A stretch of 44,461 nucleotides of DNA from Bacillota bacterium. Its GTDB lineage: Bacteria; Bacillota; Limnochordia; Limnochordales; ZCTH02-B6. The position numbers and the translations under genes were made by a program. Location: positions 1-44,461 of the forward strand of contig JACDOI010000020.1 in NCBI GenBank assembly GCA_017656145.1, written 5' to 3'. This document shows, piece after piece, positions 9,848-12,050 of this stretch (positions within the stretch are counted from its first letter, which is position 1; each line of letters opens with the position of its first letter). Under the pieces are notes generated by a model, which worked only from the letters and a program-made list of their open reading frames with translations, ran no database searches and was not told the origin of the DNA.

Positions 9848-9952
9848 TCACGACGCCTTCCGGGATGTCGGACCGTTCCGGAAGGCCTTATTTGTCGGCG
9901 GCCGGAAGGAACAGCGACCGGCCGGCGGCGAACTGTCCTCCGGGTGAAGCCC

Positions 9953-10363
9953 ATGCCTGCCCCAAGCCGCGGCTCGCGGAAGATGTTGCGCTGGCTAGCC
10001 ATCTTCGCTGCGGCCGCCGGGGGCACCGGTGTGCTGATGTCGGTGCCGCCCTTTTCGTTGCTCCTATACCCGATTTACCCGTTGGTTCATCGCCTCCACG
10101 GCTGGCTGGGCCTGGCGGTGGCGGCACCGTTGCTGCTGGCGATTTTGGGCCACGGCCTGCCGGCTTGGCTGGCCAAAGGCTCGCCGGTCTGGATGCGGTC
10201 GGGCATCGTGTTTGCGGCCGGGTTCGCGGCCGCGCTCGCCTCAGGGCTCTACATGGGGCGGTCAGCCGTCGCCTCCCCGGCCATTTTGCTTGTGCACGTG
10301 GGAGGAGGACTCTTGGCGCTGGCCGGCGCCCTTATCCACGGTGCCGCCAGCCGCAAGCCGTAA
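9953..10363 (+). CDS. Small four-helix membrane protein of unknown function
   Basis: The 136-residue product is almost entirely hydrophobic, with about four membrane helices. His residues sit near the helix ends (VHRLHGWLGL, ILGHGLPAW, LLVHVGGGLLAL, LIHGAA). This layout resembles small cytochrome-b-like or DUF4405-like heme-binding bundles, but I cannot assign a family. The ATG at 9953 has GGTGA six bases upstream; GTG 9944 and ATG 9983 are alternatives. It lies between tRNA-Ala and a sulfurtransferase gene on the same strand, whose ribosome binding site begins 8 bases after this stop codon. Confidence 0.7.
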   Translation: MPAPSRGSRKMLRWLAIFAAAAGGTGVLMSVPPFSLLLYPIYPLVHRLHGWLGLAVAAPLLLAILGHGLPAWLAKGSPVWMRSGIVFAAGFAAALASGLYMGRSAVASPAILLVHVGGGLLALAGALIHGAASRKP

Positions 10364-10386
10364 ACGAGCGTGGGGAGGGAGCCGTC

Positions 10387-11250
10387 ATCCGTCCGGACAT
10401 CGATCCCATCGTTTCCGTCGATTGGCTCGCGTCTCGGCTGGGGCGCGACGACATTGTAGTGGCCGATTGCCGATTTGATCTCGCGGACCCTTCCGCGGGC
10501 CGGCGCGCGTACGACCGAAACCACATTCCTGGAGCGGTTTACTTCGATCTGGAAACCGACCTGTCAGGGCCTGCCGGCCAAGGCCGGGGGAGGCACCCGC
10601 TGCCTGACCTGGAGGAATTCGGCCTCAAATTGGGCAAGGCCGGCATCGGCGAGGGAGTCTGCGTCGTCTGCTACGACGACGGGGACGGAGCGATGGCCGC
10701 CCGGCTCTGGTGGATGCTTCGGTATCTCGGCCACGACGGTGCAGCCGTTTTGGACGGCGGCTACAAGGCTTGGCTCGGCTCGGGCCTGCCGGTGACGGCG
10801 GAGGTTCCCAAACCCCTTGCCCGGTCCTTCGTCCCCCGGCCCCGGCCCGAACTGGCGGCGACGATGGAGGAAGTCCGGGCCATGTCGGCCGCAGGCCGCG
10901 GGGTGCTCATCGATTGCCGAGCGCCCGAGCGCTACCGGGGCGAGGTCGAGCCGCTGGATCCGGTCGCGGGCCACATCCCCGGCGCCCGCAATCTCCCGTG
11001 GATGGACAATCTGGACCCGTCAGGCCGATTCCGGAGCCGGGATGAGCTGGTCCGCCGGTTCGAGCAGCTGGACGGGCAAGACCCGATCGTCTTGTATTGC
11101 GGATCCGGGGTGACGGCTTGCGTCAATTTGCTGGCTATGGCCCAAGCTGGGATCCGGGCCAAACCCAAGCTCTACGTGGGCGGCTTCAGCCAGTGGTGCT
11201 CGGTGCCGGAAAACGCTGTGGCGCGCGTTGACCCCCGCCGGTCGCTGTGA
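10387..11250 (+). CDS. Sulfurtransferase with two rhodanese domains, mercaptopyruvate type
   Basis: The enzyme would transfer sulfane sulfur from 3-mercaptopyruvate or thiosulfate to an acceptor. The product has about 288 residues: an N-terminal inactive rhodanese domain (VSVDWLASRLGRDDIVVADCRFDL onward) and a C-terminal catalytic one with the active-site loop CGSGVTA (Cys about 238). CGSGVTA is typical of mercaptopyruvate sulfurtransferases, whereas thiosulfate enzymes usually have CRKGVTA. No ATG, GTG or TTG lies in frame near the expected N-terminus. GGGGAGGG at 10372-10379 is 7 bases from an ATC at 10387, which fits the family start (IRPDIDPIVSVDWL). An AUC start or a sequence error is implied. 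The ArsR gene follows. Confidence 0.85.
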   Translation: MRPDIDPIVSVDWLASRLGRDDIVVADCRFDLADPSAGRRAYDRNHIPGAVYFDLETDLSGPAGQGRGRHPLPDLEEFGLKLGKAGIGEGVCVVCYDDGDGAMAARLWWMLRYLGHDGAAVLDGGYKAWLGSGLPVTAEVPKPLARSFVPRPRPELAATMEEVRAMSAAGRGVLIDCRAPERYRGEVEPLDPVAGHIPGARNLPWMDNLDPSGRFRSRDELVRRFEQLDGQDPIVLYCGSGVTACVNLLAMAQAGIRAKPKLYVGGFSQWCSVPENAVARVDPRRSL

Positions 11251-11290
11251 TACCTTAATATCGACGACCTTCATCGACAAATGTCGATGA
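11228..11290 (+). promoter_or_regulatory. arsR-type promoter region with palindromic operator
   Basis: TTGACC (11228-11233) is followed after 17 bp by a weak -10, TACCTT (11251-11256). Downstream lies a near-perfect palindrome, CATCGA-CAAATG-TCGATG (11272-11289), extended by a T/A pair on each side. The same arms with the same 6-base spacing recur at 11764-11781 before the FmdB-type gene. The repeat makes an operator for the adjacent ArsR-family protein likely; the sigma-A promoter itself is less certain. Confidence 0.65.
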
Positions 11291-11323
11291 GACGCGGGGA
11301 AATCCCGGCGGGGCGGGAGGCGG

Positions 11324-11719
11324 ATGGCGCGGTCATTGGCAGCCAATGAAGCGAAACATGGGGCTCAGGCGCGCACCAAGGGCCTTCCGGCCTTAGGACC
11401 GGGCGGACCCTGGGGAGCCGGTCTCACCGCGGAAACCGATCAGGAGCTGGCCGCGGCCGGCCGCGCCCTGGCTCATCCGATGCGCATCTACATCTTGCGC
11501 GCCTTGGGCCGGCAAGGGTCCTACTGCGGAGACCTGGCGGTCTGGCTTGGTTTGGCCCAATCCACCGTCTCCCATCACCTGCGCATCTTGCGGGAAGCGG
11601 GCCTCATCGAAGGCGTCCAGCAGGGCTCGGCTACATGCTACCGGATCAATCGGGAGCGTTGCCGGGCCGTCTGCCGGCTCGTGCGCGACGTTTTGGGCGA
11701 GGAGTTCGTCCAAGGCTGA
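11324..11719 (+). CDS. ArsR-family winged-helix transcriptional regulator
   Basis: ArsR/SmtB proteins are small dimeric repressors released by metals, metalloids or thiol oxidation. This 131-residue protein has an N-terminal tail of about 35 residues, then the family core: AHPMRIYILRALG, the recognition helix LAQSTVSHHLRILREAGLI and the wing EGVQQGSATCYRI. Cys residues occur in YCGDL (before the recognition helix), ATCYRI and ERCRAVC, so a thiol-based or metalloid sensor is plausible. The ligand cannot be read from sequence. The ATG at 11324 follows GGGAGG. Identical palindromes upstream of this gene and the next suggest autoregulation and a two-promoter regulon. The upstream sulfurtransferase hints at sulfur or metalloid stress. 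Confidence 0.92.
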   Translation: MARSLAANEAKHGAQARTKGLPALGPGGPWGAGLTAETDQELAAAGRALAHPMRIYILRALGRQGSYCGDLAVWLGLAQSTVSHHLRILREAGLIEGVQQGSATCYRINRERCRAVCRLVRDVLGEEFVQG

Positions 11720-11763
11720 GGGGCTGGCCGGACGGTGAACCGGGTCCTTGGACGCGCGGTTAT

Positions 11764-11781
11764 CATCGAGATTCGTCGATG
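11764..11781. promoter_or_regulatory. Second copy of the CATCGA-N6-TCGATG operator
   Basis: CATCGA (11764-11769), six bases, TCGATG (11776-11781) repeats the arms and spacing of the palindrome before the ArsR gene. It overlaps TATCAT (11761-11766), a possible -10, and lies about 80 bases before the FmdB-type gene. Confidence 0.65.
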
Positions 11782-11858
11782 GACGATGAATCGTTTGGAT
11801 GAATCGTTTGGCCGTTTCCGGGCTTCCCGGACGGCCGGCAAGGGAAGGATGGTCGGTT

Positions 11859-12050
11859 GTGCCGAGCTACGTGTTCCGCTGCCGCTCATGCGGACATGAG
11901 TTCGAAGTGCAGACCTCCTGGTCGGCCAAGGGGGACACCACATGCCCCCGGTGCGGCGGCCGGGAGCTGAAGGAATTGTTCGGCCGCTACCGCATCAACA
12001 CCGGCGCCAGTCAGCCGTCGACCGGCACCGGGTCCGGCGGGTTCACCTGA
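11859..12050 (+). CDS. FmdB-type zinc-ribbon protein
   Basis: This is a 63-residue protein of the FmdB/CxxC-CxxC putative regulatory family. It starts VPSYVFRCRSCGHEFEV, has a second pair CPRCGG, and ends with a flexible Ser/Thr/Gly tail. The two CxxC pairs would hold one zinc ion. The function of the family is poorly defined. GTG at 11859 has GGAAGGA nine bases upstream; an upstream ATG at 11799 in the same frame lacks a ribosome binding site and family similarity. The operator copy 5-prime of the gene ties it to the adjacent ArsR-type regulator. Confidence 0.85.
   Translation: MPSYVFRCRSCGHEFEVQTSWSAKGDTTCPRCGGRELKELFGRYRINTGASQPSTGTGSGGFT

Follow-up and report, generated by a model that had tools for sequence, protein, structure and literature searches.

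Organization of the locus

The window, i.e., the whole stretch of 44,461 nucleotides that was analyzed, contains a gene for an ArsR/SmtB-family repressor that lies between a sulfurtransferase gene and a gene for an FmdB-family zinc ribbon, with an inverted repeat in front of arsR and another in front of fmdB. The features are given below; G003 and G004 denote two genomes from another genus of the same family.

10387 to 11250, + strand: sulfurtransferase of the 3-mercaptopyruvate type, with two rhodanese domains and a CGSGVTA loop (PF00581; NF008557 below its cut-off)
11228 to 11256, + strand: TTGACC-N17-TACCTT as the probable arsR promoter, which in part coincides with the end of the sulfurtransferase gene and aligns with TTGACA-N17-TATCTT in G003 and G004
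11272 to 11289, no strand: putative operator 1 (CATCGACAAATGTCGATG), between the sulfurtransferase gene and arsR, homologous to sites that precede arsR in six further genomes
11324 to 11719, + strand: arsR, ArsR/SmtB-family winged-helix repressor of 131 aa with Cys68, Cys105, Cys113, and Cys117
11764 to 11781, no strand: putative operator 2 (CATCGAGATTCGTCGATG), between arsR and fmdB, in a block conserved in G003 and G004
11784 to 11787, no strand: extra half-site CGAT, conserved, seven bases on from the second arm of operator 2
11859 to 12050, + strand: fmdB, FmdB-family zinc ribbon (CxxC...CxxC) of 63 aa with a GTG start (TIGR02605 and PF09723 above cut-off)

The probable arsR promoter scores below the threshold of the consensus scan, and it would place operator 1 at about +9 to +26 relative to the inferred start of the arsR transcript. 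No consensus promoter for fmdB was found by the same kind of scan. FmdB is a clear member of its family, scoring 47.9 with TIGR02605 (cut-off 31.3) and 48.4 with PF09723 (cut-off 34.4); its start is most likely the GTG at 11859, and the orthologs begin at the same residue. No ars, cad, or efflux genes lie near arsR in the window.

The mercaptopyruvate-type sulfurtransferase mentioned in the preliminary description is indeed present upstream of arsR, which it adjoins in all three genomes of the window's family that have this ArsR. Its membership in the regulon is not supported, as both operators are located downstream of the gene, which reaches with its end into the arsR promoter and was found beside arsR only in the window's family. 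The sulfurtransferase frame carries a good ribosome-binding-like sequence (GGGGAGGG) at window positions 10371–10390, with no ATG, GTG, or TTG close behind, and ATC or GTC would be the apparent start codon. Positions 9944–10363, between tRNA-Ala and the sulfurtransferase gene, encode a membrane-type protein of 139 residues, for which no Pfam or NCBIfam matches were obtained and which was not observed at the corresponding position in G003 or G004.

Operators in the host genome

Two identical sites had been proposed to define a small regulon. The sequence CATCGA-N6-TCGATG occurs exactly at 11272–11289 and 11764–11781, as 18-bp inverted repeats with the same arms and spacing, and a scan of the 2.57-Mb host genome (116 contigs, 99% complete) returned these two window sites as the only exact copies, along with three copies carrying one mismatch. 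Under a first-order Markov model fitted to the window, 0.21 exact copies are expected per genome, and the chance of two exact copies within 500 bp is about 9e-6. Both sites are, judging from sequence, very probably operators of the neighboring ArsR. The regulon is small as claimed, and in the host genome very small, with the position and core of the operator kept in 7/7 ortholog loci.

The shorter form ATCGA-N6-TCGAT has three copies in the host genome, the third of which lies at a locus of a different kind, downstream of galT (G000:C36:5732-5747). This copy was rejected as a regulon member, since it follows galT and a similar copy exists in G012, a genome without an ortholog, where it is located just downstream of galT and before the gene of a sugar-binding ABC protein (G012:C1:1254425-1254440). 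The galT-downstream copies, which thus occur in two genomes of the order, are probably the operator of another regulator, perhaps one of the LacI type. A promoter-anchored scan of the host genome for the loose core ATCG-N8-CGAT yielded no further promoter that was convincing, and a wider regulon in this genome was thus dropped. Immediately behind operator 2, at window positions 11785–11810, is a perfect tandem repeat of 13 bp (GATGAATCGTTTG, two units) that shares bases with the extra CGAT half-site; it is not present in G003 or G004.

Conservation of the operators

Gene order in G003 and G004 is that of the window, i.e., sulfurtransferase, arsR, and fmdB, followed by DUF4363/DUF421-type genes on the other strand, and both operator positions are retained. 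Their arsR promoter, TTGACA-N17-TATCTT, is followed directly by ATCGATGAC(C/T)G(A/G)CGAT, and the block before fmdB reads ATCGCG(A/G)TTCGGCGAT-RRA-CGATAAA, the window counterpart of which is ATCGAGATTCGTCGATGGACGATGAA. Across the three genomes the fmdB site follows the consensus ATCG-N8-CGAT-RRA-CGAT-RAA, extra half-site included. Comparison of these blocks with the window thus identifies ATCG-N8-CGAT as the kept core, to which the fmdB site adds a further half-site; the inner arm bases differ in these two nearest relatives, where only ATCG-N8-CGAT is found, and the full CATCGA arms are not kept. In most genomes the core extends to ATCGA-N6-TCGAT.

Orthologs of the regulator occur in six other genomes: G003 and G004, and, by profile search, G017, G018, and G019 of the same class and G111 of the same phylum. 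G111 was the sole addition from a phylum-wide search of 398 sampled genomes, and two distant ArsR proteins were the only matches in a scan of the public genome collection. With the window included, ATCG-N8-CGAT precedes the arsR gene or operon in 7/7 ortholog loci, and the fuller ATCGA-N6-TCGAT is found in five genomes, i.e., all except G003 and G004. Perfect copies of the fuller form stand before arsR or its operon in G018 (ATCGACGATGTTCGAT), G019 (ATCGACGATATTCGAT), and G111 (ATCGAACAACGTCGAT), and G017 has two (ATCGAAGTTCTTCGAT and ATCGAATACTTTCGAT); the eight outer core bases are the same in all 15 sites compared. In G018, G019, and G111, the operator begins 32–34 bases from where the -35 box starts, and relative to this placement the window operator is displaced about 12 bases downstream. 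Among 73 genomes of the class, TTGACA with an operator 32–34 bases on occurs five times, each time in a genome that has the ortholog, and the 67 genomes lacking it have no such arrangement; other TTGACA-operator spacings form a low background in genomes with and without the ortholog alike.

The preliminary description had considered a zinc-ribbon protein an unusual output for this family. It is unusual, yet it is conserved, the pairing of arsR with fmdB being found in four genomes of two families; in one more distant genome the two genes are adjacent and share one operator. No operator was found at the second FmdB gene of G003 or at the FmdB gene of G111.

Thioredoxin and peroxiredoxin genes as further targets

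A motif scan of ten genomes, blind to gene function, returned 19 copies, and the reversed control pattern returned 0. Of these copies, 11 are located at arsR, fmdB, trx, prx, or lysR promoters, including arsR, arsR-fmdB, and trx-arsR units and the fmdB of the window, and the others are inside genes or at unrelated places. The operator precedes a thioredoxin gene in three genomes, G018 and G019 among them, and an arsR-trx cluster is found in a fourth; trx adjoins arsR in G017 and in G111, where thioredoxin is encoded 3' of arsR on the same strand. In G017 (L055, G017:C83:6885), an operator precedes a peroxiredoxin gene, which is followed by a second AhpC/TSA gene, thioredoxin-like and containing a CHVC motif. 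The operators of these trx and prx targets mostly lie just downstream of a TTGACA-N17 promoter. Transporter, ars, and metallothionein genes are not among the targets. Probable control or adjacency of thioredoxin was seen for the orthologs in G017, G018, G019, and G111 but not in the window's own genome; no operator was found at the thioredoxin genes of the host genome, G003, or G004.

In G019 (L048, G019:C98:8213), a perfect operator follows a TATAAT box and precedes a LysR gene, which is oriented divergently to the gene of a 2-oxoacid:ferredoxin oxidoreductase subunit; this LysR gene is a possible, unexpected member of the regulon.

The ArsR protein and its cysteines

The regulator scores 72 bits with NF033788 (HTH_metalloreg, cut-off 55) and 48.4 with PF01022 (HTH_5, cut-off 22). 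Its AlphaFold model has a winged-helix fold with a core pLDDT above 90, which matches 6j05 with Z 13.3 and 7p6f with Z 13.0; the RexT structure 7txm (Z 9.6) is listed among the matches, outside the best ones. Cys68, Cys105, and Cys117 are invariant in 7/7 orthologs, and Cys113 is kept in 6/7, with Ile in G017. In the model, a short strand comprises residues 66–67, the wing strand comprises residues 103–108 and contains Cys105, and the alpha-2 helix (52–64) has no cysteine. A cysteine in the recognition helix itself is not borne out, since the model places Cys68 at the end of beta-1, just before alpha-3.

Alignment with SmtB puts Tyr67 at the position of the metal-site Cys61 and Cys68 at that of Val62, and alignment with RexT puts Cys68 and Gly69 at the positions of Cys40 and Cys41, and Thr104, Cys105, and Tyr106 at those of His75, Ile76, and Asn77. 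In the RexT structure, the amide of Cys41 contacts the backbone of His75 (PMC8960804); carried over to Gly69 and Thr104, this contact would put Cys68 opposite Cys105 on neighboring strands. Together with the modeled strands 66–67 and 103–108, this placement makes a Cys68–Cys105 disulfide plausible by analogy.

Comparison with known systems

The nearest working analogue is RexT of Nostoc sp. PCC 7120, an H2O2-sensing ArsR-SmtB repressor of trxA2 that derepresses thioredoxin on H2O2 and relies on vicinal Cys40-Cys41, with Cys41 as the peroxidatic residue, and on Asn77 (PMC8960804). Both regulators have the ArsR-SmtB fold and carry a cysteine at the RexT Cys40 position, and the orthologs of the present one adjoin or probably control thioredoxin. 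However, the vicinal pair and Asn77 are not found in the present protein, which has Cys68-Gly69 and Tyr106 at those positions, together with invariant Cys105 and Cys117, and its output in the host genome is FmdB. Similarly, CyeR of Corynebacterium glutamicum is a redox regulator of the ArsR family that acts on an oxidoreductase gene, but its key cysteine is at the RexT Cys41 position, i.e., Gly69 here. The dithiol ArsR sensors BigR, SqrR, YgaV, and HlyU, which respond to reactive sulfur or oxidants, are cysteine-based and non-metal, as the present regulator probably is, and in the window's family a sulfur-transfer gene lies close by, whereas their cysteine positions and targets differ. The metalloregulators SmtB, CzrA, and E. 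coli ArsR share with it the fold, an inverted-repeat operator at the promoter, and apparent autoregulation; in contrast, the SmtB metal-site cysteine is not conserved here, and the regulon has no metal-handling genes. In the open-access literature searched, no description was found of control of FmdB by an ArsR protein, of a link between FmdB and thiol stress, or of the present operator; no paper treating ArsR, FmdB, and the zinc ribbon together was found, and a search for TsoR likewise gave nothing relevant.

Nature of the signal

A thiol, persulfide, or metalloid stimulus had been suggested. A thiol-type stimulus is probably correct, given the motif before trx and prx genes elsewhere, and a metal or metalloid stimulus is not supported. 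Since the other targets encode thioredoxin and peroxiredoxin, the signal is most likely thiol/disulfide stress and not a metal. The redox reading for the host genome rests on the orthologs, since the thioredoxin genes of the window's family have no operator.

It is rather improbable that ArsR is instead a sensor of reactive sulfur (persulfide or polysulfide), with the persulfide produced by the mercaptopyruvate sulfurtransferase and cleared by thioredoxin. The adjacency of the sulfurtransferase gene throughout the arsR-bearing genomes of the window's family would suit such a sensor, thioredoxin is able to reduce persulfides, and BigR and SqrR show that the ArsR fold is capable of this kind of sensing. 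However, the alpha-2 cysteine that defines BigR and SqrR, where it pairs with a C-terminal cysteine, is absent (NF040642 score of 36 against a cut-off of 155), the sulfurtransferase gene does not lie behind the operators and, in G017, G018, G019, and G111, was not observed next to arsR, and the peroxiredoxin target points to a wider range of oxidants.

A sensor of metals or metalloids (As(III), Cd, Zn), which would act through Cys105/Cys113/Cys117 or through Cys68 with FmdB as an output for zinc or metal handling, is unlikely. The HTH_metalloreg match, three cysteines near and in alpha-5, the four-Cys zinc ribbon of FmdB, and the As(III) repressor AfArsR as the top fold match (Z 13.3, on a par with others) are in keeping with this reading, but Cys68 is one residue past the classical position of the alpha-3 metal cysteine, which is occupied by Tyr67, and Cys113 is replaced in G017. 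It was rejected as the main explanation because the protein lacks the SmtB metal cysteine and redox genes make up the other targets. That the repeats are RNA hairpins, terminators, or chance occurrences and not operators is highly improbable and was likewise rejected: a good RNA fold was obtained for site 1 (z -3.4), but the folds of site 2 and of two ortholog sites are only weak or do not surpass those of shuffled sequences (z -0.4, -1.1, and -1.8), the sequence is kept and the pairing is not, a T-run is absent, and identical bases return at the thioredoxin promoters of other genomes.

Proposed circuit and its significance

We consider it fairly probable that thiol-oxidizing stress oxidizes the ArsR cysteines and frees the operators, with arsR and fmdB as the output here and also trx and prx in relatives. 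The reduced ArsR dimer would occupy both operators, holding down arsR and fmdB, until peroxide, disulfide, or reactive sulfur species oxidize the invariant cysteines, most simply Cys68 with Cys105; this oxidation would distort the DNA-binding module, and the operator would be released. The result in the host genome would be more ArsR and more of the FmdB zinc-ribbon protein. In relatives, ArsR would also control thioredoxin and peroxiredoxin, and thioredoxin would re-reduce ArsR, thus closing the loop; the presence of both genes among those released fits a feedback that restores the reduced repressor. The operators and their conservation, the gene targets, and the invariant cysteines were established by computation; DNA binding by ArsR, repression, the oxidant signal, the Cys68–Cys105 bond, and the feedback are inferred. 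As thioredoxin has no operator in the window's family, the circuit may have narrowed there to arsR and fmdB, or thioredoxin may have joined it in other lineages.

The sequence comparisons indicate that this is most likely a circuit for the control of thiol and redox stress, similar to known ones, with a sensor that is built differently. The finding is real and coherent, yet it is within a known kind, the thiol-based ArsR regulators. More tentatively, the regulator might represent a separate class of ArsR redox sensors, with a cross-strand Cys68–Cys105 switch that governs trx and prx in some lineages and FmdB in others; if true, a role in thiol stress would fall to the FmdB family.

Reuse of the ArsR fold for the sensing of oxidants and sulfur has occurred several times, and the present group has its own operator, cysteine layout, and regulon. 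The defined operator sequence offers a handle for finding the regulon in other genomes, and by joining thioredoxin, peroxiredoxin, and the FmdB zinc ribbon, this regulon provides a testable function for a small family that lacks a settled role.
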